From Thermodesulfobacteriota bacterium (GTDB taxonomy: Bacteria; Desulfobacterota; BSN033; UBA1163), in contig JASEHH010000028.1 of assembly GCA_030017685.1 (NCBI GenBank), positions 1 through 37,225 on the forward strand: DNA of 37,225 bases, written 5' to 3'. The notes under the pieces were generated by a model that was given only the letters and a program-made list of their open reading frames with translations, was not told the origin of the DNA and made no database searches. Within the stretch, counting starts at the first letter, position 1. Each line of letters starts with the position of its first letter. A program made the position numbers and the translations under genes. This document shows, piece after piece, positions 12,252 through 31,863 of the stretch.

Positions 12252-12301
12252 TTGACAAGCCCTTTTAAAATTGGTAATAGGACAGATGTCATACCAATTT
12301 T
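12252..12301 (+). promoter_or_regulatory. Sigma-70-like promoter overlapped by a palindromic operator of the FadR/GntR regulator
   Basis: TTGACA at 12252-12257 is followed after 17 bp by TAATAG at 12275-12280, a near-consensus promoter. A perfect 10-bp inverted repeat, AAAATTGGTA (12267-12276) and TACCAATTTT (12292-12301), is separated by 15 bp. Its left arm enters the -10 hexamer and its right arm ends just before the start codon at 12303. TGGT/ACCA half-sites are typical of FadR-subfamily GntR regulators, so autorepression is likely. The same TTG could be read as a start codon 17 codons upstream, but this promoter argues against it. Confidence 0.75.
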
Positions 12302-12302
12302 T

Positions 12303-13022
12303 ATGAACCCCTTTCGACCGGTCAAAAGCCGAAAAATCTCAGAGCGAATCGTCCAGCAGATCAAAGGTGCAATCCTTCGGGGAGCCATGAAACCAGGGGA
12401 TAGGCTTCCTCCGGAGCGGGAACTGGTGGAACGTTTCCGGGCCAGCCGGATCTCCGTTCGAGAAGCTCTTAAAAATCTGGAGACCTCCGGCCTTCTGCAT
12501 ATCAAGCCGGGATCCGGGGTCTTTGTCGCCGAGGTCAACTCACGGCCCATGAGCGAATCCCTCGCCTCCATGCTCCGCATCAAGAAGGTATCCATGAACG
12601 AGCTGACCGAAGCACGAATGATCCTTGAACCGAACATTGCAAGGTTAGCCTGTGAACGAATGAACCCGGAAGACCTTCAAAGACTAAAGGGGAATATTGA
12701 GGAGGCTCTTGCCATTATCAAATCGAATGTTTCAGCGAGGGTGAAGAACATAGAATTTCATTCCCTCCTTGCTGAATCGACTCGGAATGCAGTCCTCGCC
12801 CTAACGATGAAGACCGTGCTCGACGTTCTGAAAGATATGTCTTCTGGGATCGTGGATAATTCACCGAAAAATATCGAAATCGCCTCCCATACGGTGAGGC
12901 ACCACAGAAAGATTCTGAAGGCACTGAAAGAGAAGGATGCTCAAAAGGTTTATGAATTGATGCGAAAACACATTCATCAGATTCAGGGAAGTTTGAAGAA
13001 AGCCGAAACCGATCATCAATAA
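12303..13022 (+). CDS. FadR-subfamily GntR transcriptional regulator
   Basis: 239 residues. The N-terminal winged helix has the GntR signature (IVQQIKGAILRGAMKPGDRL, PPERELVERF, SRISVREALKNLE, LLHIKPGSGVFV). The C-terminal helical FCD domain contains EARMILEPNIARLA, EFHSLLAES and HTVRHHRKILKAL, whose Asp/His residues usually bind a metal and a carboxylate ligand. I chose ATG 12303 because the longer frame from TTG 12252 would translate through the promoter. The transcript would then have a very short leader and no clear Shine-Dalgarno site. It directly precedes the TRAP/enzyme modules, so it most likely senses an organic acid and controls their expression. Confidence 0.92.
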   Translation: MNPFRPVKSRKISERIVQQIKGAILRGAMKPGDRLPPERELVERFRASRISVREALKNLETSGLLHIKPGSGVFVAEVNSRPMSESLASMLRIKKVSMNELTEARMILEPNIARLACERMNPEDLQRLKGNIEEALAIIKSNVSARVKNIEFHSLLAESTRNAVLALTMKTVLDVLKDMSSGIVDNSPKNIEIASHTVRHHRKILKALKEKDAQKVYELMRKHIHQIQGSLKKAETDHQ

Positions 13023-13057
13023 CCATGGAGGGGGGAGTGGGTCCCCCAAACCCATGG
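13023..13057 (+). other. Intercistronic hairpin after the regulator
   Basis: CCATGG at 13023-13028 pairs with CCATGG at 13052-13057, and a G-run at 13030-13035 pairs with CCCCC at 13043-13047, making a strong two-part stem. No T-run follows, so it is not a classical terminator. It could stabilise or segment the transcript between the low-copy regulator and the highly expressed binding protein. Confidence 0.5.
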
Positions 13058-13086
13058 GAAAGCACTCAAGAAAAGGAGGGTGAAAG

Positions 13087-14067
13087 ATGAAATGGACAAA
13101 GCCTATTCTTTTAGTAGTAGGAATCTTCGCTTTGATCGCAACCATTCCACCAACGACACTTCGGGCAGCATCCGAACTTATCCCGCTCTATACTCCCCCC
13201 GTTGGTGGTACTGCCTATGTTCTCGGAGCAGGGGTGGTCAGTGTGACAAACAAGAATCTGCCTGACGCCAATCTCGTGCATGAGGCTTCAACGGGAACCA
13301 TGGATATGGTGAGGCGCATGATGGCACGGGATGCTGCGAAAAAGCCTGCCTTTGCCATCTTCGGAACTCCGGATGCCGCGGATGCCTATAAGGGCTTGGG
13401 GGTGTTTGCTGGAAAACCATTTACAAATCTTAGGGGGATCGTTTTTGTTAACGCTTCTGATATGTATTTAGTAGTTCCCAGCAAATCCCCGATCAAATCC
13501 TTTGCTGATGTAAAGGGCAAGCGTATTGGCATTGGAGGTCCGGGGAGTACGGTTGCCAATAGCGCTCTTCGGTTCCTCGAAGCTTCCGGTGTGGCGAAGG
13601 ATGATTTCAAACCCTACTACTACACCTACAGGGAGAGTGTCGAAGGGATACAAGATGGAAGTCTCGACGGTGGTTTCGTTGGAGGAGGGTATCCCATTGC
13701 CATTTATACCGAACTTGCTCTGAGACACGATGTCCGGATTGTCCCGATAGACGAAACAGTCCTGAAGAAGGTGGTGGCTGAGCATCCATCCTATTATGGG
13801 ACTGTGGTCAAAGCCAAATCCTATAAGGGCTTGGAGCAGGACACCCTCATCTATGGGTTTGCCACTGCCCTCTTTACCCTTTCAAACGTAAGCACCGATT
13901 ATGTCTACGCACTTCTCAAGAACCTCTTCGATCGTAAGGCAGATTACTATGCCATCCACCGATCGGCAAGGGATATGACGGCTGAAGATGCAATGAAGGG
14001 GATTTCAGTGCCCTTCCATCTCGGAGCAGAGAAATACCTTAAAGAGATCGGTGCGATGAAGAAGTGA
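13087..14067 (+). CDS. TAXI-family TRAP transporter solute-binding protein (module 1)
   Basis: 326 residues with a signal peptide (hydrophobic core about 6-22, likely cleavage after LRA near 27). The mature part has the TAXI-like opening PPVGGTAYVLGAG, then DVKGKRIGIGGPGSTVANSA and GSLDGGFVGGGYPIAIYTEL. TAXI proteins capture a substrate in the periplasm and deliver it to a fused TRAP permease; known or suspected ligands include glutamate-like and aromatic acids. AAGGAGGG lies 7 bases before ATG 13087. The permease follows 22 bp downstream. Compared with the TAXI gene at 19246, it is divergent in sequence, so the two modules probably take up different compounds. Confidence 0.9.
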   Translation: MKWTKPILLVVGIFALIATIPPTTLRAASELIPLYTPPVGGTAYVLGAGVVSVTNKNLPDANLVHEASTGTMDMVRRMMARDAAKKPAFAIFGTPDAADAYKGLGVFAGKPFTNLRGIVFVNASDMYLVVPSKSPIKSFADVKGKRIGIGGPGSTVANSALRFLEASGVAKDDFKPYYYTYRESVEGIQDGSLDGGFVGGGYPIAIYTELALRHDVRIVPIDETVLKKVVAEHPSYYGTVVKAKSYKGLEQDTLIYGFATALFTLSNVSTDYVYALLKNLFDRKADYYAIHRSARDMTAEDAMKGISVPFHLGAEKYLKEIGAMKK

Positions 14068-14089
14068 AGGGGAAACGTGTCCGATTATA

Positions 14090-16030
14090 ATGAAACCTGA
14101 TCAGGAGATTGGTTCCACTCCCAAGGAAGAGGCAAAGAAATGGGGAGTCCGTCGCATTCTCATCTTTGCGATTGCCCTCGCAATGGCGCTCTTCCATATG
14201 TATACCGCTGGTGTCCGTCAGCTACCAGGGGTTCAACAGCGGACCATCCATCTCTCCTTTGCTCTTGGCCTTATCTTTCTACTCTTCCCCTTTAAGTCAA
14301 GGAGCGAGGAAACGGGGGAGGGCAAGGCCACTGACGAGCACCGGCCAATCACAGCCATTGACATTGTTTTCCTTCTGCTTTCTTTATTCATCGGCCTTTA
14401 CGTCTTTTTCGACTATGAGAACATCAGTTTTCGCACCGGGATTCCGAATACCCTCGATTCCTTCTGCAGCCTTTTAGCCATCCTCTTGGTGCTTGAAGCA
14501 ACGCGGCGAGTCATCGGATGGGCCATTGTGATCATCTGCTTCATCGGATTTCTCTATCTGGCTTTTGGGGATCACCTTCCTTTCTATCTGGCCCATACGG
14601 GCTTCACCTTCGAACAGGTCATCAATTTTTTATTTTTCAGCACCGACGGAATCCTCGGGCCTGCACTGGCAGTCTCAGCCACGGTCATCGTCGTTTTCAT
14701 CATTTTCGGTGCGTTTCTGCAGGTCTCCGGAACAGGACCTCTCTTCATGGACACGGGGATGGCACTCTTCGGGAGGTACAGGGGCGGACCGGCAAAGGCG
14801 GCTGTCCTGGGAAGCTGCCTCTTCGGAATGATCACAGGGAGTCAGGTGGCCAACGTGGCAGCCGTGGGTGTCTTTACGATTCCCCTCATGAAGAAGGCGG
14901 GATACAAGCCGGAGATGGCCGGGGCCATAGAGGCTGTTGGATCAACAGGCTCCATGATCATGCCTCCGGTCATGGGTGCAGCCGCCTTTATTATTCCTGA
15001 AATGATCGGTGGGACTTACCTGGATGTGGTGAGGGCAGCCATCATCCCTGGCCTCCTCTTCTATGTAGCGCTTTATATGGTCGTTGAGTTGCAGGCGGTC
15101 AAGCTGGGGCTCCGGGGATTTTCAAAGCCTGAGCTTCCAACCCTGATGACCCTTTTCAGAGAAAAAGGGCATATGCTCATCCCTATCCTGGTTCTCATCT
15201 ATTTCCTTGTTATCAGAGCAAGCACGCCACCGAGGGCTGCCTTCTGGGGTGTGATTTTCTGTATCCTTACGAGCATGCTACGCCGGGGGACAAGGATGGG
15301 CTTTCGAGAGATCGTCTCCGCTCTCGAAAAGGGCGCAAAAGGAACCCTCATCGTGGCGGCCTGCTGCGCTTCTGCCGGCATCATCACAGGGGCGATCAGC
15401 ATGGCAGGCCTGGGCGAGCGTTTTTCAGACATCCTCATTACCCTTGCCGGGGGGAGTATCATTCTCCTCCTTGTTCTGACGATGATTGCATCCATTATCC
15501 TCGGACTTCCCCTTCCGCCAGTAACGTGTTATCTGATTCTGGCCGTACTGGCAGCGCCTGCGCTCATCAAAGCCGGAATCCATCCAATGGCAGCGCACCT
15601 CTTCGTCTTCTTCTTCGGAACCCTGGGCAATATTAGTCCCCCTGTTGCTCCGACCTCCTTTGCAGCGGCAGGCATAGCAGGATCGGATCCTGTGAGGACA
15701 ACAAACCTCGCCTTCCTGGTTTCCTTGCCGGTATGGTTAGTCCCCTATCTCTTTGTCTACAGCACAGAGATCCTGCTTATGGGTCAATTGGAAATGATTC
15801 TTCTCAGGGTATTGACATCCTTTATTGCTATCAGCTGTATGGCGGTTGCATTTCAGGGATATCTGTTGAAGGCAATGGGATGGATTCTACGTTTAGGGTT
15901 TTTGGCCGCTGGGCTTTTATTGATTTACCCCTATTGGGTAACAGATATTATTGGTTACTTATTGATCGGAATACTTATCCTCATCCACGTGATTGCCTCA
16001 CGTGGACCAAGAGGTGTTCCATATGAGTGA
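14090..16030 (+). CDS. Fused TRAP transporter permease, DctQ-DctM type (module 1)
   Basis: 646 residues, strongly hydrophobic, with an N-terminal four-helix DctQ-like part (about 1-150) and a DctM-like part. The latter contains the family motifs GGPAKAAVLGSCLFGMITGSQVANVAAVGVFTIPLMKK (14790-14896) and EAVGSTGSMIMPPVMGAAAF. Near 480-530 are the second-repeat features GLPLPPVTCYLILA and FGTLGNISPPVAPTSFAAAG. It imports the cargo of the TAXI protein using an ion gradient. No strong ribosome binding site lies close to ATG 14090 (GAAGGGG is about 15 bases away), which suggests coupling to the upstream gene. Confidence 0.92.
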   Translation: MKPDQEIGSTPKEEAKKWGVRRILIFAIALAMALFHMYTAGVRQLPGVQQRTIHLSFALGLIFLLFPFKSRSEETGEGKATDEHRPITAIDIVFLLLSLFIGLYVFFDYENISFRTGIPNTLDSFCSLLAILLVLEATRRVIGWAIVIICFIGFLYLAFGDHLPFYLAHTGFTFEQVINFLFFSTDGILGPALAVSATVIVVFIIFGAFLQVSGTGPLFMDTGMALFGRYRGGPAKAAVLGSCLFGMITGSQVANVAAVGVFTIPLMKKAGYKPEMAGAIEAVGSTGSMIMPPVMGAAAFIIPEMIGGTYLDVVRAAIIPGLLFYVALYMVVELQAVKLGLRGFSKPELPTLMTLFREKGHMLIPILVLIYFLVIRASTPPRAAFWGVIFCILTSMLRRGTRMGFREIVSALEKGAKGTLIVAACCASAGIITGAISMAGLGERFSDILITLAGGSIILLLVLTMIASIILGLPLPPVTCYLILAVLAAPALIKAGIHPMAAHLFVFFFGTLGNISPPVAPTSFAAAGIAGSDPVRTTNLAFLVSLPVWLVPYLFVYSTEILLMGQLEMILLRVLTSFIAISCMAVAFQGYLLKAMGWILRLGFLAAGLLLIYPYWVTDIIGYLLIGILILIHVIASRGPRGVPYE

Positions 16031-16064
16031 GACATCGGTAAGTTGAGATGATGGAGGTTCAATC

Positions 16065-17069
16065 ATGAAAATCATTGATATTCATAACCATCTTTACCCT
16101 AAGGAATGGATGGATTATCTCGAAGGGAGAGAGGGTTCTACAACGTTGAAGCGAACAGGGCCAGGGGAGATGCTCTTCTATTACAAAGGGGCGCGGCTGG
16201 CCACTGTGAATAGGGCGGGGCACTATGATCCTGAGGCCCGGTTGAAGGACCTGGATGAATATGGAATCGATATCCAGATCATGAGCCTCACGACGCCCAG
16301 CGTAGAACTCATATCGAGAAGAGAAGGTGTGACCTGGGCAAAGAAGGTGAATGACTACTATGCCGCCGTGTGCGAAAAGTATAGAGGTCGCCTCTATTCA
16401 TATGCGACCCTTCCTTTTCAAGATGTGAAAGAATCTGTAAAAGAGCTCGAGCGGTCCTACAGAGAGCTCGGCGCAAAGGGAGTGACCCTCTTTTCAAATA
16501 TCAAAGGCATGCCGATCTACTCGCCGAAATTATTTCCGATCTATGAAGCGGCTGAGGCTTACGGGATACCCATCTTCATACACCCTGCTCCTCCCCTCAC
16601 AACCGAGGTGATGAAGAAGGTCCAAATGCCCCTCTCCCTTTTCGGCTTTATCCTCGATACGACCATGGCCGTTACAGGGCTCATCTTCCAGGGTGTGCTT
16701 GAAAGATTTCCTCAATTGAAGATCATCCATGCCCATCTCGGTGGCGTTTTCCCCTATCTGGTGGGAAGAATTGAAGACTGCTTTAGGACTTATTCAAAGG
16801 AATATGGTTTCTCTCTGGAAAGGACGCCCCTGGAGTATTACAAGAGGAACGTCTATATCGATGCGATCTCTTTTTATCTTCCAGCCATGAAATGTGCTCT
16901 GGAGTTTGTGGGGCCTGACCATATGCTCGTCGGTACGGATTATGCTCATCCCATCGGAGGACCGGAAAAGGTCATTGGTTTCATTAAGAGCTTGGGTCTT
17001 TCGGAAGAGGATACTGAAAAGATTTTCTGGAAGAACGCCACCCAACTCTTCAAACTTGATCAATGGTAA
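16065..17069 (+). CDS. Amidohydrolase-superfamily protein, ACMSD/gamma-resorcylate decarboxylase type (module 1)
   Basis: 334 residues. The metal-site residues are all visible: H7 and H9 in DIHNHLYP, H173 in FIHPAPP, H222/H224 in IIHAHLGG and D292 in VGTDYAHP. In the ACMSD-like branch these enzymes usually catalyse non-oxidative decarboxylation of aromatic or dienyl acids, though some are hydrolases. AGGAGG-like TGGAGG precedes ATG 16065. It sits between a TRAP permease and an AprA-like flavoprotein, suggesting that the imported compound is an aromatic-type carboxylate. A related protein, lacking the first His, is encoded at 22148. Confidence 0.88.
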   Translation: MKIIDIHNHLYPKEWMDYLEGREGSTTLKRTGPGEMLFYYKGARLATVNRAGHYDPEARLKDLDEYGIDIQIMSLTTPSVELISRREGVTWAKKVNDYYAAVCEKYRGRLYSYATLPFQDVKESVKELERSYRELGAKGVTLFSNIKGMPIYSPKLFPIYEAAEAYGIPIFIHPAPPLTTEVMKKVQMPLSLFGFILDTTMAVTGLIFQGVLERFPQLKIIHAHLGGVFPYLVGRIEDCFRTYSKEYGFSLERTPLEYYKRNVYIDAISFYLPAMKCALEFVGPDHMLVGTDYAHPIGGPEKVIGFIKSLGLSEEDTEKIFWKNATQLFKLDQW

Positions 17070-17087
17070 AGGAGTGTGTGATCTGAA

Positions 17088-18785
17088 ATGGCAAAGAATC
17101 TTGAAAAATTGGGGGTAACCTTTGAAACAGATGTCCTGATTGTAGGAGGTGGTTTAGCCGGGAACAATGCAGCGATAGCGGCTCTGGAGAAGGGAGCCCG
17201 GGTGCTCATTGCCGACAAAAGTTCGCTATATCGATGTGGCGCCATCGCCGGTGGCGTAGATCATTTCATGGCTTATCTAGGCACGGATACATGGGATACC
17301 CAAGAAGCCTATCTGGAGTGGGTGGGCAGGATAGCCAGGGGCGTGGTCAATCTCAGCGTCCAGAATGCCGTGTTCTGCAAGGAATTGGATGCAGCCATTG
17401 AAAGGATGGACAGGATCGGATGTACACTCAAACAACCTGACGGGAACTTTTTCCGAACCCAGTCCTTGGGTCAGCCTGGCCCTTATTTCATCAATTTCAA
17501 TGGAAAGCAACTGAAACCCCTTCTTGCCAAAGAAGCGCTGCGCCTTGGCGCGGAAGTGCTGGAAAAATGTTCCATCTCAGGGCTCCTCACCGAAGGAGAA
17601 AATGTGACCGGTGCAGTAGGGTTCAATATCCGGAACGGAAATTTTTACATCATTAAAGCAAAAGCCATTGTCCTTGCCACAGGGAACACTAACCGATTGT
17701 TCGAGAACCCTTCCGGGCTCCCATTTAACACCTGGCAATGTCCGGCCAATACCGGAGCAGCTCAAACCATGGCTTATGAAGTGGGAGCGAAACTTGCCAA
17801 TATGGAATTCGTACGGATCACCGTGGTTCCAAGAGGTTTCAGCGCAGCCGGTTTGAACGCCTTGACAGGAATGGGTGGAAAATTTGTGAACGCCTCCGGG
17901 GAAGAATTCATGTCAAGATACCATCCTTCAGGGAATAGATCTCCCCGTTATAAACTGGTAGAAGGAGTGATGAAGGAGCTCTATGAAGGGAGGGGGCCGG
18001 TCTACATTGACTGCCGCCATCTTTCTCAAAGTGATCTTGATCATTTAAAAAGGACTTTGGGCTATGATAAAGATACGCTTCCAGATTTTATCGAGCAGAA
18101 GGGAGTTGATCTTGGAAAGGACCTTCTCGAAATCATGCCCTCTGAAGGGATGCAGGCAGGACCATCGGAAGTTTGTGGAAGCGGGATTTTAATAGATGAA
18201 AAAACAGCTTCGACTGCTCCTGGACTCTTCGCAGCAGGAGACTGTGCCGATCAGATGAGGTGTGTCCACATCTGCACCACAGGTGGATATCTTGCAGGAA
18301 AGATGGCAGCAGAATTTGCCATGGGGTCTGGAAAAGAGCCGAAATTGCTTCTGCCTCAGATTAGAGAATTGAGGAAGAAGGCTTTTGCTCCCATGAGGAC
18401 TTCGGGAACGATTTCCTACCGTAAAGTTGAGGATACATTAAGAAAGATGCTCTGGCAGAATGCAGGACCTGCACGGAATGAAAGGAGCCTCCAGGTGGCT
18501 CTTGAGAAATTAGAGGAGTTGAGTCAATGTTTCAAAGAGATAAGGGCCAAGAACTATCATGAATTGATGCGCGTGCACGAAACCCATCAAATCTTAGAGG
18601 TTGCCAAGATGATGTGCACCGCTGCTCTGGCGAGGAAGGAGACCCGATTTGGCGTCTATCATCACAGGACAGATTATCCGGAGGTAGATGAAGAATATGA
18701 GGGCCAAATCGTGTTATGGAAAACGGAGCAGGGGATGAAGACTGCCTTCAAAAAGTTAGATTACGATAAGATCCCTCTTTCCTAA
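17088..18785 (+). CDS. AprA-like FAD-dependent oxidoreductase (fumarate reductase/APS reductase flavoprotein superfamily)
   Basis: 565 residues. The FAD dinucleotide fold is DVLIVGGGLAGNNAA (G20, G22, G25) with D43 ending the second strand; the C-terminal FAD contact is GLFAAGDCAD. The middle (TGAAQTMAYEVGAKLANMEF, MPSEGMQAGP, HICTTGGYLAGK) resembles adenylylsulfate-reductase subunit A and its relatives of unknown substrate. A two-cluster ferredoxin resembling AprB is encoded 230 bp downstream, so the pair may form an AprBA-like heterodimer, but in normal AprBA the B gene comes first. The stop codon TAA lies inside an inverted repeat that begins at 18782, so the last residues may have been altered by that insertion. 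The reaction is unknown; sulfate reduction is not implied, since sat and qmo genes are absent here. Confidence 0.85.
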   Translation: MAKNLEKLGVTFETDVLIVGGGLAGNNAAIAALEKGARVLIADKSSLYRCGAIAGGVDHFMAYLGTDTWDTQEAYLEWVGRIARGVVNLSVQNAVFCKELDAAIERMDRIGCTLKQPDGNFFRTQSLGQPGPYFINFNGKQLKPLLAKEALRLGAEVLEKCSISGLLTEGENVTGAVGFNIRNGNFYIIKAKAIVLATGNTNRLFENPSGLPFNTWQCPANTGAAQTMAYEVGAKLANMEFVRITVVPRGFSAAGLNALTGMGGKFVNASGEEFMSRYHPSGNRSPRYKLVEGVMKELYEGRGPVYIDCRHLSQSDLDHLKRTLGYDKDTLPDFIEQKGVDLGKDLLEIMPSEGMQAGPSEVCGSGILIDEKTASTAPGLFAAGDCADQMRCVHICTTGGYLAGKMAAEFAMGSGKEPKLLLPQIRELRKKAFAPMRTSGTISYRKVEDTLRKMLWQNAGPARNERSLQVALEKLEELSQCFKEIRAKNYHELMRVHETHQILEVAKMMCTAALARKETRFGVYHHRTDYPEVDEEYEGQIVLWKTEQGMKTAFKKLDYDKIPLS

Positions 18786-18982
18786 GAGACTGTGTCGTTA
18801 GTCCGTTCATGGTTCGACAGAGTCTGTCCTGAGCGAACCGTTCACCCTTCGAGAACCTCAGGGCGAACGGTGAGTCGAAGGGCTCACCACGAGCGGACCA
18901 CGGCACGTTAAAAATCAATTACTTAGCCGTTCGTCCTGAGCGTGTCGAAGGGCGAATGGTGAATTACGACACAGTTTCTTAG
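18782..18982. repeat. 201-bp palindrome-rich repeat with 17-bp terminal inverted repeats
   Basis: CTAAGAGACTGTGTCGT at 18782-18798 is the complement, with one mismatch, of 18966-18982. Inside are several REP-like units of the TTCGACAG...CTGTCCTGAGCGAA and CCCTTCGAGAACCTCAGGGCGAACGG type, sharing vocabulary with the hairpin at 8346-8377. The structure looks like a small non-autonomous element or REPIN. No convincing target duplication is seen. The left end supplies the stop codon of the flavoprotein gene, and the element separates it from its ferredoxin partner. Confidence 0.75.
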
Positions 18983-19015
18983 GGGGGAGAGATTTTTGAA
19001 TAGGAGAGGCGAACG

Positions 19016-19222
19016 ATGCCACCCGTGATAGATGTGAATAAGTGTAATGGGTGTGGAATTTGTGATTTTCATTGTCCGTTAGATGTGATACATTTTGGCG
19101 AGGGTCAGAGGTTTCCTGTGGTCAAGTATCCCGATGAATGCTGGCATTGCGGGTCTTGTCGTCTCGACTGCCCAGTGGAGGCCATAACAATCCGTTTTGG
19201 TCCTGAAATGCTCTATCTCTAA
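19016..19222 (+). CDS. AprB-like 2[4Fe-4S] ferredoxin
   Basis: 68 residues with two cluster motifs: C10-X2-C13-X2-C16-X3-C20-P and C42-X2-C45-X2-C48-X3-C52-P. The second is preceded by YPDECWHCGSC, a phrase typical of the beta subunit of APS reductase and its flavoprotein-linked relatives. It lacks the long AprB C-terminal tail. AGGAGAGG lies 7 bases before ATG 19016. It probably shuttles electrons to or from the flavoprotein at 17088, from which it is separated by a repeat element. The next gene, a TAXI protein, starts 23 bp later. Confidence 0.88.
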   Translation: MPPVIDVNKCNGCGICDFHCPLDVIHFGEGQRFPVVKYPDECWHCGSCRLDCPVEAITIRFGPEMLYL

Positions 19223-19245
19223 ATAAAGGGAAAGGAGGTTTTTAA

Positions 19246-20178: not shown

Positions 20179-20221
20179 GATGACGAAGAGAATACCGTTT
20201 TTTTAAGGGAGGATAGGGAAA

Positions 20222-24334: not shown

Positions 24335-24348
24335 TAACACTGATCTTC

Positions 24349-24378
24349 TTGGAATTATTTTAATCAATCAAATACATT
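24349..24378 (+). promoter_or_regulatory. Candidate promoter for module 3
   Basis: TTGGAA (24349-24354) and TACATT (24373-24378) are separated by 18 AT-rich bases, in the only gap (63 bp) between modules 2 and 3. The -10 match is moderate. No terminator hairpin was seen in the gap, so read-through from module 2 is equally possible. Confidence 0.35.
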
Positions 24379-24397
24379 ATACGAGGGAGGGAGGAAG

Positions 24398-25420
24398 ATG
24401 AAAAAAAGAATTTTCCTATTGGCGATGGCTTTATTTTTAGTTTTTATCTTTGCTACAGGGAAGTTTTCTTATGCCCAGGCTGTGAAGCCTATCGAATTGA
24501 AACTATCCCATTTTATGTCACCTATGCATAACCTACACGTGGATGTGCTCGCCCCCTTCGCTAAGGAGGTTGAGGAGCGAACCAAGGGAAGGGTTAAAGT
24601 AACCATCTATCCTGGAGAAGCCTTAGGGAAGGCGAAGGATCACTACGATATGACGATGCACGGGATTACCGATCTCGCTTTATTCATCCACGGATATACC
24701 GCTGGCCGATTTCCGCTTACCTCTGTAATAGAACTTCCTATTAACGTCCCTTCAGCGAAAGTTGGCAGTCGAGTCATCTGGGAACTCTATGATAAATATC
24801 TGGAGCAGGAATATCCTGGCATCAAACTTCTAACACTTTGGACTCATGGACCCGGTCATCTCCATATGACAAAAAAACCTGTCACTAAGTTAGAAGATAT
24901 CAAAGGGTTAAGGATAAGGATCCCTGGTCCCTTACAGACAGCCCTTCTTAGAGAATTAGGGGTCTCCCCGCTCACCATCCCCATTCCTGAAGTCTATGAT
25001 GCCCTTCAACGGGGAATGGCAGAAGGCGCTGTGGTTCCCTTCTCTGTTATTATAGATTTTAAACTTTATGAATTGACGAGGTACCACACCCTTTCGAATC
25101 TTTATGTCATGAGCATGGGTTTTGCGATAAACCCAAAGACCTGGAATGGTCTTTCACCAGACATACAAAAGATCATCGAAGAGCTTTGCGGTTCTCGTAT
25201 GTCAGAGACTGCTGGTGCCTCCTATGATAAATATGATTCATTAGGGATGGAGGCTGCGAAAAAAGTGAAGGCAGAAATTCTCTCGCTTTCATCAGAGGAG
25301 AAGAAAAGATGGGCCGATCAGATCAAACCTCTGAATGGTAAATGGATCGCGGATATGGAAGCAAAGGGACTCCCCGGGAAAAAGATCTTTGATGATGCTC
25401 GTCTGCTTTTGGAAAAATAA
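24398..25420 (+). CDS. DctP-family TRAP transporter solute-binding protein (module 3)
   Basis: 340 residues with a signal peptide (cleavage after SYAQA, near 27). The family features are present: LKLSHFMSPMHNLHVDVLAPFA at the start of the mature protein, the ligand-binding Arg in LEDIKGLRIRIPGP, and ALQRGMAEGAVVP. DctP proteins bind carboxylates, including sugar acids and aromatic acids, through that Arg. GAGGGAGGAAG precedes ATG 24398. Its two permease subunits lie about 3.7 kb downstream, after three enzyme genes, an uncommon arrangement. Confidence 0.93.
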   Translation: MKKRIFLLAMALFLVFIFATGKFSYAQAVKPIELKLSHFMSPMHNLHVDVLAPFAKEVEERTKGRVKVTIYPGEALGKAKDHYDMTMHGITDLALFIHGYTAGRFPLTSVIELPINVPSAKVGSRVIWELYDKYLEQEYPGIKLLTLWTHGPGHLHMTKKPVTKLEDIKGLRIRIPGPLQTALLRELGVSPLTIPIPEVYDALQRGMAEGAVVPFSVIIDFKLYELTRYHTLSNLYVMSMGFAINPKTWNGLSPDIQKIIEELCGSRMSETAGASYDKYDSLGMEAAKKVKAEILSLSSEEKKRWADQIKPLNGKWIADMEAKGLPGKKIFDDARLLLEK

Positions 25421-25449
25421 ACCAGGGTTAGGGATGGCAGGGAATTAGA

Positions 25450-26466
25450 ATGGATCATGCCGATTTGAGTAAAAAAATTGTTACATTTAAGAAAGTCATA
25501 GCCTTGGAAGAGGTTGAGGAAGTCCCTGCCATCCCTTCCGTGAGTGGTTGGGTTGCAAAATTCTCAGGGGTTCCTCTAAAAGAACTTCTTTTTAGTCCGG
25601 AGGCCTTTGTCAAGGCCCAAATCAATGCCCAGAAAGAAATTGGATACGACGCCCTCTTCGCTTACCTTGATGCTCTTTATATCCCAGAGGCATTCGGATG
25701 TCCCCTTGTTTTCCGTTCTTCAGGGGCGGATGTTTCTCCAATGGAAATCAAGAATGAAGCGGATGTAAGGGCACTTCCTAAGGTGGACATCCGAAAAGAT
25801 GGAAGACTTCCCATCCTATTGAGCGTTGCAGAACAACTCGTCCGATTCCCTGAAAGAGAAGTTCCCGTATTGGGCCTTGTGGAGGGTCCTTTTACCACCT
25901 CTTCTCGAATCCTCGGTGCAGAGAAGATGATGAGGGGCCTGATCAAGGATAGTCCAATGGTTGAGGGGATGATAGATAAGGCCGGCTACCTCCTTTCCGA
26001 TTTCGGCCATGCCCTTACAGAGATTGGAATCGATGGATTGATCATCGCAGACCCTGTGAGTTCTTCGACCATGATCTCTCCGAAAATCTACCGTCAATTT
26101 GTCCTTCCCCATCTTCAACGTTTGATTAAAGGCCTGGAGATTCCTGTCATCCTCCATGTCTGCGGAAATACGGAGCCCATTCTCAACTTGATGGCAGAGA
26201 CCGGAGCGAGAATCTTAAGCCTTGATCAGTGTATGGACCTCACCCTGGCAAAGGAAACCGTGGCTGGTCGCTGTGGGATCGGAGGAAATGTCGACCCAAT
26301 GGTCCTCCTTTTTGGGACACCCGAAGATGTGAAACGAGAGACCTTGAGATCTCTTAAACAGGGAGGTAAAAAGGGATTTATTCTCATGGCTGGATGTGCT
26401 GTGTCCCCTGGAACACCGATGAAGAATTTGAAGACGATGATTGAGGTGGCGAGATGCCCATCCTGA
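25450..26466 (+). CDS. Uroporphyrinogen-decarboxylase-family protein, MtaA-like methyltransferase type (module 3)
   Basis: 338 residues. The zinc site of the methylcobalamin:thiol methyltransferase branch is visible: H236-x-C238 in ILHVCGNTEP and C316 in LMAGCAVSPGTP. True HemD/HemE-type decarboxylases lack this H-x-C...C set, so a C1-transfer role (MtaA/MtbA/CmuA branch) is more likely. In that branch the protein moves a methyl group from a corrinoid protein to a thiol or other acceptor. No corrinoid-binding protein gene is adjacent. The ribosome binding site is weak. The end overlaps the molybdopterin gene by 13 bp, implying coupled expression. Confidence 0.85.
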   Translation: MDHADLSKKIVTFKKVIALEEVEEVPAIPSVSGWVAKFSGVPLKELLFSPEAFVKAQINAQKEIGYDALFAYLDALYIPEAFGCPLVFRSSGADVSPMEIKNEADVRALPKVDIRKDGRLPILLSVAEQLVRFPEREVPVLGLVEGPFTTSSRILGAEKMMRGLIKDSPMVEGMIDKAGYLLSDFGHALTEIGIDGLIIADPVSSSTMISPKIYRQFVLPHLQRLIKGLEIPVILHVCGNTEPILNLMAETGARILSLDQCMDLTLAKETVAGRCGIGGNVDPMVLLFGTPEDVKRETLRSLKQGGKKGFILMAGCAVSPGTPMKNLKTMIEVARCPS

Positions 26467-28529
26467 AGACCTTTTGTTCAATCTGTAACCCCCATAGTCA
26501 TTGTGGCATCAATGCCCGTGTGGAAAATGGACGACTGATTGAAGTGGAAGGGATGTTAGAACATCCTGCCAATGAAGGAACCCTGTGCGCTAAAGGGGCG
26601 GCAAGCGTCCAGTATGTTTATGCAAAAAATCGGTTGAAATACCCAATGATTCAGAGGGGAGAAAGGGGAAGCAAGAATTGGGAGCGGATCTCTTGGGAAG
26701 AGGCCCTCTCTGTGATCGCCTCCAGACTGATTGAGATTCGAGATCAATATGGTCCGGAGTCAGTCATTTTTTATGCAGGTTATCCAAAATGGTTTCGGCC
26801 CTTTCTTCAGCGTCTTGCCCACGGCTTTGGTTCACCCAATTATGCTACGGAATCGAGTGTCTGTTCCTCCTCACCGACCGTTGCAGGGAAACTGACTTTT
26901 GGTTATTTCGGCCGTCCCGACCTCACCAGAACGCGGTGTCTTCTCAACTGGTCTTCAAATCCCTTCTATACGAATTCCACTTTGACCCGATCACTTCTTG
27001 ATCTAAGGGAGAAGGGGGTTAAGTTCATCGCGGTGGACCCCAGGGTTTCTGCGTTTGCAGAAAAGGCTGACCTCCATCTTCAACTAAGGCCTGGAACGGA
27101 TGGGGCATTAGCGCTGGGGATGATTCGCGTCTTGATCGAAGAAAAACTCTATGACCGAGACTTCGTAGAGAAGTGGACCGTGGGTTTTGACGAATTGTGT
27201 CAATATTTAGAGGAACACCCATTGGAATGGGCGGAAAGAATCACAGGGGTCCCGAAGGAGAAAATTCGAGAGGCGGCGAGGCTCTATGGCATGACAAAGC
27301 CCGCAGCCTTGATGACCAGCGCTTCTTCCACTACCCACCACCTCAACGGTTTTCAAAACCACAGGGCCATTCTTCTCTTGCCAGGGTTAACCGGCAACTT
27401 CGATATTCCTGGTGGTAACTGGGTGGAACCGATCACCTATCTCTATACGAATAGTGGTGCACCTACGAATGAAGAGGAGATACGTCTTGTTAAGAAATTG
27501 AAAGAGTTTCCTCCCCGGATTGGTGAGGATCGTTTCCCGATCTGGTGTCGTTACTACACTCCTGAGGCTCATTCCATGGCCATTCCTTTTCAAATCAAAT
27601 CTGGGAAACCTTATCCACTGAAGGCCTTCATCGGTTTTGGCCTCAATTACCGTATGTGGCCAGGATCAGATTTTTTTAAAGAATCCCTTTTGAGCCTCGA
27701 CTTTCTGGTGAACACCGATCTTTTCTTTACCGACACCTGTCAATGGATGGACTTAGTTCTGCCTGCAGCAACATCTTTTGAACGAACAGAACTGAAGCAT
27801 TGGAATTCCAAATATCTGATGTTGACGTCACCTGTGATCGACCCTGTTGAAGAATCTCGTTCGGATGTTGAGATCATTTTCGACATGGCCAGACATTTAG
27901 GCCTGGGAAACCTCTTCTGGAATGGAGACTTTGATGCTGCCATCGATGAACTGATGGCACCCTCTAATTATACCGCCGAAGAACTTCGAAAGCGTCCAAT
28001 GGGAACTTATGTCCGTCATCCTTTGAAGCCAGGATACAAAAAGTATGAAAAGTCAGGTTTTCCTACCCCTTCTGGCAAGATGGAGATCACTTCAACCATT
28101 TTGAAGGAAGCAGGATTTGATGCCCTCCCTGTCTATAGGGAACCACGGCATCCTTCTCTCTCCAAAGATCCTTCCAATTATCCTCTGATACTCAATACAG
28201 GCTCTCGACTTCCAATGTTTATACATTCGGAAATGCACAATGTCCCTTGGTGTGAGGAATTGAGAAAGGATCCCCTTTTGGACATGAATCCTTCTGATGC
28301 CTCAGAGCGTGACATCGGGCCTGATGACTGGGTTTGGCTGGAAACTCCCAGAGGAAAGATTCGCGTCAGAGCCAACCTCACCCAGACGGTCCTTCCAGGG
28401 GTTGTCCATATGGCGCATGGTCTTCAGGAACCAGATGTAAATCTTCTGATCGAACCGGATTATCTCGATCCCATCTCCGGATTCCCAGGGTTTAAATCAT
28501 TAAGGTGCCAAGTGACAAAGGCAGATTAA
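26454..28529 (+). CDS. Molybdopterin (bis-MGD) oxidoreductase, DMSO-reductase family (module 3)
   Basis: 691 residues. The N-terminal [4Fe-4S] site is C8-X2-C11-X5-C17-X27-C45, followed by the MGD-binding domains. C137 in YATESSVCSSSP is placed like the Mo/W-ligating Cys of the polysulfide-reductase group. LNTGSRLPMFIHSEMHNVPW and the final barrel domain (DWVWLETPRGKIRVRAN) are typical of the family. There is no twin-arginine signal, so the enzyme should be cytoplasmic, unlike respiratory PsrA or DmsA. A four-cluster ferredoxin subunit follows 4 bp later; no membrane anchor gene follows. The reaction could be reduction, hydroxyl transfer (transhydroxylase-like) or hydration. It starts inside the UroD-like gene. 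Confidence 0.88.
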   Translation: MPILKTFCSICNPHSHCGINARVENGRLIEVEGMLEHPANEGTLCAKGAASVQYVYAKNRLKYPMIQRGERGSKNWERISWEEALSVIASRLIEIRDQYGPESVIFYAGYPKWFRPFLQRLAHGFGSPNYATESSVCSSSPTVAGKLTFGYFGRPDLTRTRCLLNWSSNPFYTNSTLTRSLLDLREKGVKFIAVDPRVSAFAEKADLHLQLRPGTDGALALGMIRVLIEEKLYDRDFVEKWTVGFDELCQYLEEHPLEWAERITGVPKEKIREAARLYGMTKPAALMTSASSTTHHLNGFQNHRAILLLPGLTGNFDIPGGNWVEPITYLYTNSGAPTNEEEIRLVKKLKEFPPRIGEDRFPIWCRYYTPEAHSMAIPFQIKSGKPYPLKAFIGFGLNYRMWPGSDFFKESLLSLDFLVNTDLFFTDTCQWMDLVLPAATSFERTELKHWNSKYLMLTSPVIDPVEESRSDVEIIFDMARHLGLGNLFWNGDFDAAIDELMAPSNYTAEELRKRPMGTYVRHPLKPGYKKYEKSGFPTPSGKMEITSTILKEAGFDALPVYREPRHPSLSKDPSNYPLILNTGSRLPMFIHSEMHNVPWCEELRKDPLLDMNPSDASERDIGPDDWVWLETPRGKIRVRANLTQTVLPGVVHMAHGLQEPDVNLLIEPDYLDPISGFPGFKSLRCQVTKAD

Positions 28530-28533
28530 ATAA

Positions 28534-29061
28534 ATGGAAAAATCGATGCAAAAGGGATTTTATCTTGATCTCACTCGTTGCACTTCTTGCTATGCCTGTG
28601 TGGTAGCCTGTAAGGCCCATCATGCCATTCAAGAAGAGACGGTCTATTGGCGAAGGGTATTGACTCTGGAGGGAGGGGCATATCCCAATGTCCGTGTGGC
28701 AAATCTTTCACTCTCATGCTTACATTGTGCCATTCCTGCTTGTAGAGTGGTCTGTCCCACCAAAGCGATTTATAAACGAAGGGAAGATGGTTTGGTTTTA
28801 GTGGATCCGAATTTTTGTATCGGGTGCAAAATGTGTTTAATGGTTTGTCCGTTTGGTGTCCCACAGTTTGGCAGGAATGGAAAGATGCAGAAATGCAATT
28901 TCTGCTTGGACCGATTGGAGAATGGACTGAATCCAGCCTGCATAAGTATCTGCCCTGCCAGAGCACTCCATGCAGGGTCAATAGATGAACTTTCATTGCT
29001 GGCTGCTCGAAAATCGGCCCGCCAACTCATCCGAAGCACAGATCCATCTTTTTTCATTTAA
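28534..29061 (+). CDS. Four-cluster 4Fe-4S electron-transfer subunit (DmsB/PsrB type, module 3)
   Basis: 175 residues with Cys motifs for four [4Fe-4S] clusters: CTSCYACVVAC (from C16), CLHCAIPACRVVCP, CIGCKMCLMVCP and CNFCLDRLENGLNPACISICP. This is the standard beta subunit that wires molybdopterin catalytic subunits to an electron carrier. It begins 4 bp after the catalytic gene. Two Met starts are possible (28534 and 28546); the first lacks a good Shine-Dalgarno site, as does the second, so coupling to the upstream gene is likely. With no NrfD/DmsC-like anchor present, the partner is probably a soluble carrier. Confidence 0.92.
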   Translation: MEKSMQKGFYLDLTRCTSCYACVVACKAHHAIQEETVYWRRVLTLEGGAYPNVRVANLSLSCLHCAIPACRVVCPTKAIYKRREDGLVLVDPNFCIGCKMCLMVCPFGVPQFGRNGKMQKCNFCLDRLENGLNPACISICPARALHAGSIDELSLLAARKSARQLIRSTDPSFFI

Positions 29062-29127
29062 CTTCCTTCAGACACAAAAAGGGGATTTCTTGGGAAGCTT
29101 AAATTCAAAACAGAAAAGGATCGATCA

Positions 29128-29586
29128 ATGGAGAGAATATTTTCTATCATCAAAAGTTTAAGTCGGTTGATGTATTGGATTGCTGGTATCGCCCTTACCT
29201 CCATTGTGTTTCTGACAGTCGCGGATGTTATCCTGAGAAGGTTCAAGATGCCGATCGATTGGACTTACGAGGTTGTCGTCCTACTCGGTGCAATTGCTAT
29301 CGGGTTTTCCATTCCTCAAACCACATTAGACAAAGGACACGTCCTGATGGAATTCCTTACTGAAAGACTTCCCCCAGGATGGCAAAGGATGTTCAGCGCC
29401 CTTACTCGATTTCTTGGAATGGCGATATTTGCCGTCTTCGGCTGGAGAATCTTCTCCTATGGGAATAACCTCTTGAGATCTGGAGAAGTCTCTCCGGTTC
29501 TTCAGATGCCGACCTATCCTGTCGCCTATGGCATCGGAGTTTGCTGTTTTGTTGTGGGTCTGGTCCTTTTCTATGACCTGTTGTAA
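29128..29586 (+). CDS. TRAP transporter small permease, DctQ (module 3)
   Basis: 152 residues with four hydrophobic helices. The DctQ signature is in TVADVILRRFKMPIDWTYE, followed by a second conserved stretch, LDKGHVLMEFLTERLPP. It forms the four-helix small subunit that pairs with DctM in the inner membrane. AAAAGG lies about 9 bases before ATG 29128. DctM begins 20 bp after its stop. Confidence 0.9.
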   Translation: MERIFSIIKSLSRLMYWIAGIALTSIVFLTVADVILRRFKMPIDWTYEVVVLLGAIAIGFSIPQTTLDKGHVLMEFLTERLPPGWQRMFSALTRFLGMAIFAVFGWRIFSYGNNLLRSGEVSPVLQMPTYPVAYGIGVCCFVVGLVLFYDLL

Positions 29587-29606
29587 AAAATAAAGGGGGT
29601 GAAAGC

Positions 29607-30908
29607 TTGAGTATAACCACCATTGGCCTTTTGATCATTTTATTGTTATTTGTATTTTTTCTTATGGGCTTGGAAATCGGTTTTTCAATGGCTCTGGCAG
29701 GCTTTATCGGATATGCTGCGATTGTCAATATTGAAGCGGCGCTGAATCTTGTAGCCATGGATATCTTCACCGTCTTCTCATCATACGGTTTCCTTGTCAT
29801 ACCTTTATTTGTACTCATGGGCCAAATCGGAGCAAGCGCTGGAATCTCAAAAAGCCTTTATTATTCCGCTTATAAATTTATCGGCCATGTTCCTGGCGGA
29901 CTTGCCTTAGGGACAGTAGCAGCTGCTACTGCCTTCAAAGCCATCTGCGGATCATCCCCTGCCACAGCGGCCACCTTTGCCACAATCGCTGTGCCCGAAA
30001 TGGATAGATATGGTTATGATAAAAGGGTTTCATGTGGAACGGTTGCAACCGTGGGGACTTTGGGAGTTATCATTCCTCCGAGTGTCACTCTGATTATATA
30101 TGGAATTCTGACACAGACATCTATTGGCAAATTGTTCTTAGCAGGAATCATTCCAGGTCTTATGATCGCATTTTCTTTTATAGTCACCCTGTATGGTTGG
30201 TGTAAAATAAACCCAAAAATGGGGCCAAGGGGTGAGAAATCCACATGGAGAGAGAGGTTTGCATCTCTCCCCCCTGTGTCGGGTGTTATTGTCGTCTTTT
30301 TTTTAGTTGTAGGTGGTCTGATGAAGGGATTTTTCATGCCGACAGAGGCTGGAAGCGTAGGGGCCTTTGCGGTACTCGTTCTCGCGGTCGCTAAGAGGGA
30401 TATCAATTTGAAAGGCTTTATCAAATCGGTTATGGATTCTCTGCGTATCGCCTGCATGATTTTAATGCTCCTTGCAGGAGCAACAATCCTCGGCCATTTT
30501 TTTGCAGTCACAAAGATGCCCTACATCCTTGCAGAGTGGCTGGGTGCTCTTCCGGTTCACCGAAATATCATTATCATCATCATTATCTTTGCCATTCTCA
30601 TTGGGGGTTCCTTCATTGAAGATCTGGCATTCGCCATTCTTGCCATCCCGGTCTTCCTGCCACTCGTCTTGAAGTTGGGTTTTGATCCGGTTTGGTTTGG
30701 CGTGATCGTCTGTGCCACCTGCATGATCGGGATTATCCTCCCTCCCATGGCCATCAATGTTTTTGTGGTATCAGGCATCACGAAAGTACCCATCGGGACG
30801 ATTTACAAAGGGATCTATCCATTTATTGTGGGCATGGCTATATGTCTGTTGATTCTTGTGCTCTTCCCTCAGATTTCGCTTTGGCTTCCGAATATGTTAA
30901 TGAAATGA
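29607..30908 (+). CDS. TRAP transporter large permease, DctM (module 3)
   Basis: 433 residues, about twelve helices. Motifs include IPLFVLMGQIGASAGIS, the conserved AICGSSPATAATFATIAVPEM and LGVIIPPSVTLIIYGILTQ in the first half, and MPTEAGSVGAFAVLVL. The second half has CMIGIILPPMAINVFVVSG. It is the transport subunit for the DctP protein encoded at 24398. The start is TTG 29607 with AAGGGGGTG upstream; no nearby ATG keeps the N-terminal helix intact. Confidence 0.93.
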   Translation: MSITTIGLLIILLLFVFFLMGLEIGFSMALAGFIGYAAIVNIEAALNLVAMDIFTVFSSYGFLVIPLFVLMGQIGASAGISKSLYYSAYKFIGHVPGGLALGTVAAATAFKAICGSSPATAATFATIAVPEMDRYGYDKRVSCGTVATVGTLGVIIPPSVTLIIYGILTQTSIGKLFLAGIIPGLMIAFSFIVTLYGWCKINPKMGPRGEKSTWRERFASLPPVSGVIVVFFLVVGGLMKGFFMPTEAGSVGAFAVLVLAVAKRDINLKGFIKSVMDSLRIACMILMLLAGATILGHFFAVTKMPYILAEWLGALPVHRNIIIIIIIFAILIGGSFIEDLAFAILAIPVFLPLVLKLGFDPVWFGVIVCATCMIGIILPPMAINVFVVSGITKVPIGTIYKGIYPFIVGMAICLLILVLFPQISLWLPNMLMK

Positions 30909-30918
30909 CCAGAAACCT

Positions 30919-31863
30919 ATGGAATCCAGAGAGAACCATCAGCTTCTCATCTACCATACCGATGCCAAACTCTATGAAGCTATTCTTTTGAAAAGATTGC
31001 CTCATCTCGAAATCCATTCTGCTGAGCGACCCGAAGAGGCATCCGGTTTTATCGAGGAAGCCGAGATCATCCTCTCATGGAAAATCCCCGATGAATTGCT
31101 GAAGCGAGCCAGACACCTCCAGTGGTTTTCCTCAACCGCCGCAGGAAACGAACACCTCGTCAAGAACCCCCATCTCCCCGAATCGGTCGTTTTTACCAGG
31201 GCAACGGTTTACGGAGAGATGATGGCAGAGTATGTCTTTGCCTACCTCCTCTATTTTGCCAGAGACCTGTCAAAATATTTTTTGGATCAGCGGCAGAAGA
31301 TTTGGGAACAGAGACGACCGGAGCGCCTGAGGGGGAAGGTGTTGGGCATCCTGGGGCTTGGCTCGGTTGGCAAAGAGATTGCCAGACGGGGGAAACAGTT
31401 CGGGATGGATGTCCTCGGCCTGAAGCGGACTCCTGAAGCTGTGGAAGACGTGGATCAGGTTTTTGGTCACGAAGATATCAGGAGGATGATTCCCCAGGTG
31501 GATTACCTCATCAATACCCTTCCACTCACCGAAGAGACCTATCATCTCTTAAGAGAAGAGGAACTCTCTCGGTTAAAAGAGGAGGCTATCTTCTTCAATA
31601 TCGGCAGAGGAAAGACCGTTGACGAAAAAGCCCTAGTTCAGGTTCTAAAGGGTAAAAATATTCGAGCAGTCCTCGATGTCTTTGAGGAGGAGCCCCTCTC
31701 CCCTGAAAGCGAACTCTGGAATCTAGAGAATGTAATCATCACCCCCCATGTCTCAGGCATCAATATTCCAGAGGAGATCTGTGAAGAATTCGTTAGGAAT
31801 TATGAGCGATGGGTCAAAGGCCAACCCCTGACCGGCCTGGTGGACAGAAGCAAGGGATATTGA
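30919..31863 (+). CDS. D-2-hydroxyacid dehydrogenase, NAD(P)-dependent
   Basis: 314 residues. The Rossmann motif is GILGLGSVGKEIARR. The catalytic triad of the family is visible: Arg in FFNIGRGKTVDE, Glu in FEEEPLSPES and His in TPHVSG. These enzymes reduce 2-oxoacids to D-2-hydroxyacids or the reverse. It begins 10 bp after dctM and ends the long + strand run, so it is probably the last gene of module 3. No ribosome binding site is clear. Confidence 0.9.
   Translation: MESRENHQLLIYHTDAKLYEAILLKRLPHLEIHSAERPEEASGFIEEAEIILSWKIPDELLKRARHLQWFSSTAAGNEHLVKNPHLPESVVFTRATVYGEMMAEYVFAYLLYFARDLSKYFLDQRQKIWEQRRPERLRGKVLGILGLGSVGKEIARRGKQFGMDVLGLKRTPEAVEDVDQVFGHEDIRRMIPQVDYLINTLPLTEETYHLLREEELSRLKEEAIFFNIGRGKTVDEKALVQVLKGKNIRAVLDVFEEEPLSPESELWNLENVIITPHVSGINIPEEICEEFVRNYERWVKGQPLTGLVDRSKGY

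Follow-up and report, generated by a model that had tools for sequence, protein, structure and literature searches.

A 19-kb run of catabolic genes in a Thermodesulfobacteriota bacterium (lineage UBA1163; contig JASEHH010000028.1 of assembly GCA_030017685.1) was analyzed together with its relatives; the window is the whole stretch of 37,225 nucleotides. The run consists of 17 genes at 12252-31863, all on the + strand, with a regulator at 12252 and the sixteen others at 13087-31863. They include three complete TRAP transporters (two TAXI-TRAP systems with fused permeases and one DctPQM-TRAP system) and a short reductive dehalogenase, RdhA. Comparison with other genomes of the genus suggests that this island was probably assembled in layers around RdhA rather than by duplication of a block. 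RdhA itself is probably a working cytoplasmic dehalogenase, judging from its sequence. We lean slightly towards a role of the island in the import and cytoplasmic processing of substituted hydroxyaromatic acids, including a dehalogenation step. The genes, in order, are as follows (profile scores in bits, with curated cut-offs where given).

12252-13022, +, GntR/FCD (FadR-subfamily) regulator (PF00392 75.5; PF07729 84.6, cut-off 24.3)
13087-14067, +, TAXI-type TRAP binding protein 1, TAXI1 (TIGR02122 205, cut-off 84)
14090-16030, +, fused TRAP permease 1 (TIGR02123 632, cut-off 321)
16065-17069, +, AH1, Amidohydro_2 protein of the ACMSD/gamma-resorcylate decarboxylase superfamily (PF04909 132.9, cut-off 26.4)
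17088-18785, +, AprA/FrdA-like flavoprotein (aprA model 160, cut-off 642)
18783-18982, no strand, dispersed repeat of ~200 bp between the AprA-like and ferredoxin genes
19016-19222, +, two-cluster ferredoxin of 68 amino acids, AprB-like (Fer4 44.3; AprB 41, cut-off 136)
19246-20178, +, TAXI-type TRAP binding protein 2, TAXI2 (TIGR02122 231, cut-off 84)
20222-22135, +, fused TRAP permease 2 (TIGR02123 620, cut-off 321)
22148-23152, +, AH2, Amidohydro_2 protein (PF04909 141.4, cut-off 26.4)
23189-24334, +, RdhA, short NpRdhA-type reductive dehalogenase (TIGR02486 189.5, cut-off 160.35)
24398-25420, +, DctP-type TRAP binding protein (PF03480 169; NF037995 125, cut-off 50)
25450-26466, +, UroD-superfamily MtaA/CmuA-like methyltransferase (TIGR01463 188.3, cut-off 235.4)
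26454-28529, +, molybdopterin oxidoreductase of the DMSO-reductase family, Mo-enzyme (PF00384 141; PF01568 77; PF04879 46)
28534-29061, +, DmsB-like Fe-S subunit (TIGR02951 166.6, cut-off 214)
29128-29586, +, DctQ small permease (PF04290 73.9)
29607-30908, +, DctM large permease (TIGR00786 317, cut-off 268)
30919-31863, +, D-2-hydroxyacid dehydrogenase (PF02826 174.9)

Profile searches with curated cut-offs recovered every gene of a preliminary description of this DNA, each at its place and on its strand. The label of RdhA is firm, with a score above the TIGR02486 family cut-off. Both TAXI systems pair a TIGR02122 binding protein with a TIGR02123 fused permease above the cut-offs, and DctP, DctQ, and DctM all lie within the cluster. 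Because their scores are below the curated cut-offs, the labels AprA, AprB, MtaA/CmuA, and DmsB are used only as "-like"; the Mo-enzyme is below the cut-off of every NCBIfam model shown, and its label denotes resemblance only. A scan of the window with Rfam (gathering thresholds) and for tRNA genes gave no matches.

Probable layered assembly at a fixed RdhA site

The same-genus set comprised ten genomes including the window's own, and the same-family set seven others. An RdhA ortholog with 84-93% identity is present in eight of the nine other same-genus genomes, the exception being G006 (88% complete). Its site is fixed, with a divergent NUDIX gene upstream (where visible) and the dehydrogenase gene and a gene for a 389-amino-acid Fe-S protein downstream. 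The dehydrogenase gene directly follows RdhA on the 3' side in six of the nine (G001, G002, G004, G005, G008, and G009). Only DctP, DctQ, and DctM stand between the two in G007, and G003 has the entire arrangement of the window. On the upstream side, RdhA follows the NUDIX gene without an intervening TAXI unit in G001, G004, G007, G008, and G009; G002 and G005, whose contigs end at or just before RdhA, were excluded from this count. RdhA and the D-2-hydroxyacid dehydrogenase are thus the most widely shared core at the site.

The arrangement in the window can be explained by three nested insertions. The TAXI units, with AH1, the AprA-like protein, the ferredoxin, and AH2, would have entered between NUDIX and RdhA; DctPQM would have entered between RdhA and the dehydrogenase; and the UroD, Mo-enzyme, and DmsB-like genes would have entered between DctP and DctQ. 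We infer that the cassettes were gained rather than lost, since gain is the simpler course when the full form occurs in two close relatives only. The borders of the three transporter-plus-enzyme modules drawn in the preliminary description are not borne out by these gene orders: RdhA follows NUDIX without a TAXI unit in five same-genus genomes, and a unit of TAXI2, permease2, and AH2 occurs without RdhA in another genus (G015). Membership of RdhA in the second module was rejected on both grounds.

Neighboring genes of the 17 are at most 66 nt apart, except that the AprA-like gene is separated from the ferredoxin gene by 230 nt, most of which belongs to the dispersed repeat. The terminal inverted repeats of this element are imperfect (18 of 22 nt matching, with the ends placed by eye), and it resembles a miniature inverted-repeat transposable element or a repetitive extragenic palindrome. 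It has 66 matching pieces across its own genome, the window copy counted, and is found at the equivalent place in G003 with 97% identity. Promoter-like sites are at shuffle background (19 versus 21.8), and terminator-like sites are slightly more frequent than in shuffled sequence (30 versus 23.6, standard deviation 5.2). A single long transcript of the run is possible.

A small antitoxin-like open reading frame and a PIN-domain gene lie at 31956-32638, between the dehydrogenase and Fe-S protein genes. The pair is at the equivalent place in G004 and G002, and tblastn did not find it between these two genes in G001, G005, G008, and G009.

RdhA resembles catabolic dehalogenases of the NpRdhA type

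RdhA (381 amino acids) matches NpRdhA of Nitratireductor pacificus over query residues 11-378 (430 bits, 4RAS). Alignment maps its S170, Y174, K236, and R300 to S422, Y426, K488, and R552 of NpRdhA, which are named together with A419 and M423 in PMC7565698. All 22 aligned RdhA sequences keep these four residues unchanged, along with the cysteines of the cluster motifs CXXCXXCXXXCP (at residue 260) and CXXCXXXCP (at 309); this alignment left out G005 (truncated), G008, and relatives below ~41%. A419 and M423 of NpRdhA are replaced by Asn and Phe, and the RdhA pocket therefore differs from that of NpRdhA. Relatives of RdhA in G193, G357:C35, G007:C40, and G159 are also above the TIGR02486 cut-off.

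Residue 11 of the query aligns to position 260 of NpRdhA, and the duplicated cobalamin-binding domain, a feature of catabolic RdhAs (PMC10463259), is absent from RdhA. Neither a fused PDOR domain nor an adjacent ferredoxin reductase with ferredoxins was found; the nearest ferredoxin, the 68-amino-acid protein four genes upstream, goes with the AprA-like protein elsewhere. RdhA has no Tat motif (RR.F.K was looked for). There is no RdhB gene beside it, the neighbors being AH2 (36 nt) and DctP (63 nt), and the rest of the genome was not searched for RdhB.

A respiratory enzyme, acting as the terminal reductase of organohalide respiration, would agree with membership in TIGR02486 and with the presence in the window (1214-4254) of a multihaem cytochrome c gene followed by a gene for an MtrB/PioB-type outer-membrane porin, which suggests extracellular electron transfer. 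However, RdhA lacks the RR.F.K motif, its neighbors are AH2 and DctP rather than RdhB, and its closest solved relatives are catabolic, all of which makes a respiratory role very unlikely. Ortho-halogenated phenols are the substrates of the catabolic RdhAs characterized to date (PMC10463259), and by analogy an ortho-halophenol is a rather likely substrate.

RdhA neighborhoods outside the genus

The wider search covered a draw of 395 genomes of the phylum, with RdhA counted at E ≤ 1e-60. Genes at neighboring loci were labeled by BLAST against the window proteins and by inspection of N-termini, and some loci were also scanned with profiles. Of the 395 genomes, 17 carry RdhA, and 14 of their 21 loci fall outside the genus; one Acidobacteria record has it as well. 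DctP lies within 2 kb of RdhA at three of the 14 outside loci (G357:C35, G333, and G216), each with a GntR/FCD gene (Pfam) between the two, and ~3-5 kb away at two more (G315 and G357:C7). A gene for a coenzyme A (CoA) ligase adjoins RdhA at three (G304, G357:C22, and G315), an aldehyde-ferredoxin-oxidoreductase-type gene at two (G045 and G357:C7), and TctC/TctA genes lie upstream of RdhA in G193 with another gene between. RdhA relatives near DctP and an FCD regulator, or beside a CoA ligase, are spread over three other families.

The PaaK-type ligase gene of the window (6840-8195) was rejected as a specific partner: nine of the ten genomes searched, its own counted, have one of at least 69% identity, the exception being G003 (47%). 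Proximity of a ligase to RdhA or the AprA-like gene is therefore weak evidence, except for the second copy located 37 bp from RdhA in G304. In a second cluster of the same-genus relative G007 (L080, G007:C40, 1-9341), genes for an AprA-like protein (29%), a ferredoxin, an AMP-binding ligase, DctP, DctM, and an RdhA (35% to that of the window) occur together. Here the association seen in the window takes a looser form.

The two TAXI units have separate histories

In the preliminary description, the repeated order of binding protein, permease, amidohydrolase, and redox protein was read as one block duplicated in place and then re-tooled. The order is real, and both blocks share it. However, TAXI1 and TAXI2 are only 29% identical, the permeases 41%, and AH1 and AH2 30%, whereas each of these six proteins has a relative of 64-84% outside the genus, with closer partners in other genera and families. 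In phylogenetic trees, TAXI1, permease1, and AH1 group with G193, and TAXI2, permease2, and AH2 with G015 (AH2 also with G002). By these comparisons, each TAXI unit of the window has a history of its own. Together with the five genomes in which RdhA occupies the same site without a preceding TAXI unit, the sequences contradict the duplication, which is hardly credible; a deep event before the genus is all that would remain of it.

The AprA-like flavoprotein was compared with seven other loci (E ≤ 1e-100). Importer genes cluster with it in all seven (TAXI in four, TctC/TctA in two, and, at the seventh, a fused permease on the edge of its contig), an Amidohydro_2-type gene in six (all except G357:C115), and an adjacent ferredoxin gene in five; no ferredoxin was seen at G000:C142, and G357:C139 is cut by a contig end. 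G045 and G368, from another family, have in a row a GntR regulator, TAXI, permease, AH2 (62-63%), AprA-like protein (66-67%), ferredoxin, AH1 (57-60%), and a Mo-enzyme-like protein, and the row in G193 is AprA-like protein, ferredoxin, TAXI1 (71%), permease1, and AH1. These recurring loci indicate that AH1, the AprA-like protein, and the ferredoxin belong together as a set, with AH2 added to it in one family. The 68-amino-acid ferredoxin is likely the partner of the AprA-like protein. RdhA is present in five of the six genomes with the AprA-like gene compared with 17 of 395 overall (Fisher 4.6e-7, kinship ignored).

Relatives of AH2 (62-84%) occur in G045, G368, G002, and G015. A 9.8-kb contig of G015 carries TAXI2 (80%), permease2 (78%), and AH2, with 78-84% identity across this unit, and neither an AprA-like gene nor RdhA. 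In G002, a GntR gene precedes a cluster in which the AH2 relative is accompanied by two UbiD genes, a PaaK-type ligase gene, and a TAXI system; this GntR gene, cut by a contig end, is a 58% relative of the window regulator.

The best solved relative of the AprA-like protein is the alpha subunit of MtPAPSR (220 bits). Reduction of adenosine 5'-phosphosulfate (APS) by the AprA-like pair was rejected on the scores (160 against 642 for aprA and 41 against 136 for aprB) and on the residue alignment, in which the residues that we take to form the AprA active site are mostly not kept. AH1 and AH2 both have the Amidohydro_2 domain of ACMSD/gamma-resorcylate decarboxylase-type enzymes, in which an N-terminal H-x-H or E-x-H binds metal; AH1 has H-x-H and AH2 has F-x-H at this place. 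Their best solved relatives are an ACMSD (157.8 bits) for AH1 and the uncharacterized 3IJ6 (168 bits) for AH2. The chances that AH1 acts as a decarboxylase appear about even.

The UroD and Mo-enzyme unit

The UroD-type protein is closest to the MtaA/CmuA group (TIGR01463), and the methylcobalamin:coenzyme M methyltransferase 4AY7 scores 130.6 bits. H236, C238, and C316 form an H-x-C and distal-Cys pattern of the kind that provides zinc ligands. The same pattern is seen in MtaA-type S-methyltransferases (PMC10418091), and the UroD superfamily includes aromatic O-demethylases, in which zinc is not always carried (PMC13222342). At E ≤ 1e-80, the UroD gene occurs in four of the 395 genomes, from three lineages, with Mo-enzyme and DctP genes near it in each. 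Two of these genomes belong to two further families. G159 has, within 10 kb, genes for an acyl-CoA synthetase, RdhA (33%), DctP (38%), Mo-enzyme (34%), and UroD (42%). In G316, two DctPQM systems accompany the genes for a Mo-enzyme, a RACo activator, and UroD (63%). The TIGR01463 scores of their UroD proteins (174.6 and 176.5) are also below the cut-off of 235.4.

The Mo-enzyme has acetylene hydratase as its best solved relative (263 bits). Elsewhere in the window's own genome there are two RACo genes. One of them is grouped with two UroD-like genes and the gene for a B12-binding corrinoid protein (L133, G000:C153), and this group resembles a corrinoid methyltransferase cluster. As a side observation, G004 has a row (L081, G004:C5, 4158-12476; labeled by BLAST and by eye) of genes for a Mo-enzyme-like protein, an Amidohydro_2-like protein, a peptidase-like protein, a D-2-hydroxyacid dehydrogenase (37%), and a Tct-like transporter.

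Demethylation by the UroD-type protein is possible, although we regard it as doubtful. The gene may instead serve the corrinoid of RdhA, in the manner of RdhV of Desulfitobacterium hafniense: RdhU, RdhV, and RdhW, with their resemblance to a corrinoid protein, UroD, and MeTr, are described in PMC9888536 as being induced by organohalide respiration, and UroD stands two genes after RdhA in the window and near RdhA in G159. However, six same-genus genomes have the dehydrogenase after RdhA and no UroD, and G316 has UroD, Mo-enzyme, DctPQM, and RACo, yet is outside the 17 RdhA genomes, assuming that it is part of the draw. We consider service to the corrinoid rather unlikely.

Proposed function of the island

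We propose the following working of the island, whose substrates, reaction directions, co-transcription, and electron donor we infer. The importers would bring in substituted hydroxyaromatic acids, and AH1, perhaps also AH2, would catalyze a decarboxylation or carboxylation. A reductive step would fall to the AprA-like flavoprotein with its ferredoxin. RdhA would take off a halogen ortho to the phenolic hydroxyl group in the cytoplasm, in a non-respiratory reaction with electrons from ferredoxin-level donors and not from a membrane chain. The UroD-type protein would demethylate the substrate or serve in corrinoid methyl transfer, and the dehydrogenase would interconvert a 2-oxo and a 2-hydroxy acid side chain.

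Part of the theme put forward in the preliminary description is supported: uptake of organic acids, which are probably aromatic, and their reductive processing in the cytoplasm agree with the Tat-less NpRdhA-type RdhA, with the DctP/FCD or ligase neighbors of its relatives, and with the UbiD/TAXI cluster of G002. A TAXI-TRAP system has been described as a phthalate importer (PMC13040137).

Several observations weigh against this proposal. The preliminary description named absence of the arrangement from relatives as grounds for refutation, and this applies in part: sub-blocks do recur, but the complete form is present in only two of the ten same-genus genomes (the window's and G003), and because of this, the modules need not share one substrate. 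The RdhA ortholog is absent from all seven other same-family genomes, and at G116, G160, G357:C54, and G238, which are four of the 14 loci outside the genus, neither an importer nor a ligase was seen beside RdhA. DctP genes are common, with 4-22 per genome in 13 genomes; the chance of one within 2 kb is ~2.5%, and the three hits among 13 collapsed lineages (the window genus counted as one) give p ~0.004, a rough, post hoc value. In G159 and G316, the genes for UroD, Mo-enzyme, and DctP lie on mixed strands and therefore do not form one operon. The window proteins scanned did not include a corrinoid protein, and AH2 is without the first metal-ligand His. The AlphaFold model of RdhA, which matches NpRdhA structures best (TM-score 0.75, 44% identity) and then PceA, is of moderate confidence (predicted local distance difference test score 67.6, predicted TM-score 0.73).

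The strongest rival is that the site is a landing place for unrelated catabolic cassettes, which act on different substrates and are co-oriented by chance. It fits the presence of the full set in two of ten genomes, the separate occurrence of modules elsewhere (for example, G045 has RdhA and the AprA-like cluster on two contigs, and 36 kb separate them in G193), and the dispersed repeat within the run. However, the genes lie on one strand behind one regulator with gaps of at most 66 nt apart from the repeat, the AprA-like gene and RdhA co-occur in genomes far above expectation, and the combinations of RdhA with DctP and of UroD with Mo-enzyme, DctP, and RdhA recur elsewhere. We consider unrelated cassettes possible but not probable, and continue to favor, by a little, the processing of hydroxyaromatic acids. 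More broadly, and only as a tentative and rather improbable extension, the single-domain NpRdhA-like clade may represent TRAP-fed cytoplasmic, non-respiratory dehalogenation as a step in the anaerobic catabolism of natural halogenated aromatic acids by Deltaproteobacteria-type bacteria. It would be combined here with demethylation (UroD and Mo-enzyme) and decarboxylation (AH1, AH2, and the AprA-like protein) of the same class of compounds, for which fungal chlorinated methoxybenzoates and acids from halotyrosine breakdown are candidates.

Comparison with known systems

RdhA shares its catalytic residues, two 4Fe-4S motifs, and the absence of a Tat signal with NpRdhA, BhbA, and JtRdhA. Enzymes of this type have ~700 amino acids, whereas RdhA has 381 and is without the duplicated N-terminal cobalamin-type domain and the reductase domain. 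It also has no adjacent ferredoxin reductase; its gene is surrounded by TRAP genes, joined in the genus by a D-2-hydroxyacid dehydrogenase gene, and its hosts are anaerobe-type metagenome-assembled genomes. Among deltaproteobacterial RdhA genes, 16 of 35 have a Tat signal and 26 of 35 have an RdhB gene nearby (PMC6299228); nine of 88 expressed RdhA genes have an incomplete or missing Tat motif, and intracellular activity was suggested (PMC12090745). These Tat-less RdhAs of Deltaproteobacteria and marine sediment bins are likewise predicted to be cytoplasmic and belong to anaerobes, and a catabolic-operon setting is not described in the covered parts of either paper. Cytoplasmic RdhA in such bacteria is thus an already proposed idea.

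The TAXI-TRAP and UbiD phthalate clusters of denitrifiers (PMC13040137) place TAXI beside genes for aromatic-acid decarboxylation, as in G002; the window instead has Amidohydro_2 proteins and the AprA-like pair, with no UbiD among 30 scanned proteins. The AprA-like protein shares its sequence family and a ferredoxin-type partner with AprA and MtPAPSR, which are APS and 3'-phosphoadenosine 5'-phosphosulfate reductases, but is linked to amidohydrolases and importers and is below the aprA/aprB cut-offs. With MtaA/CmuA/MtsA-type methyltransferases and mlp clusters (PMC10418091), the UroD-type protein has the H-x-C and Cys pattern in common, whereas the window shows no corrinoid protein or activator and has the Mo-enzyme and DctPQM nearby; no mention of TRAP or molybdopterin was found in the main text of that paper. 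A UroD-type gene in an rdh neighborhood, as in the window, is known from RdhU/RdhV/RdhW of D. hafniense DCB-2 (PMC9888536), but no corrinoid or MeTr gene was seen beside UroD here.

In the open-access literature, we recognized no paper describing this gene combination. Every part belongs to or lies close to a known family, and as far as our searches show, what is new is the layered island and the short single-domain RdhA clade with its recurring link to DctP importers, FCD-type regulators, and CoA ligases. The catabolic, non-respiratory RdhAs with a structure or assay in the cited papers come from oxygen-tolerant or aerobic settings. If the short clade in anaerobe-type lineages acts in this way, the removal of halogens in anoxic settings would not have to be respiratory. 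The locus also supplies testable partners in the importer, the regulator, and the D-2-hydroxyacid dehydrogenase.

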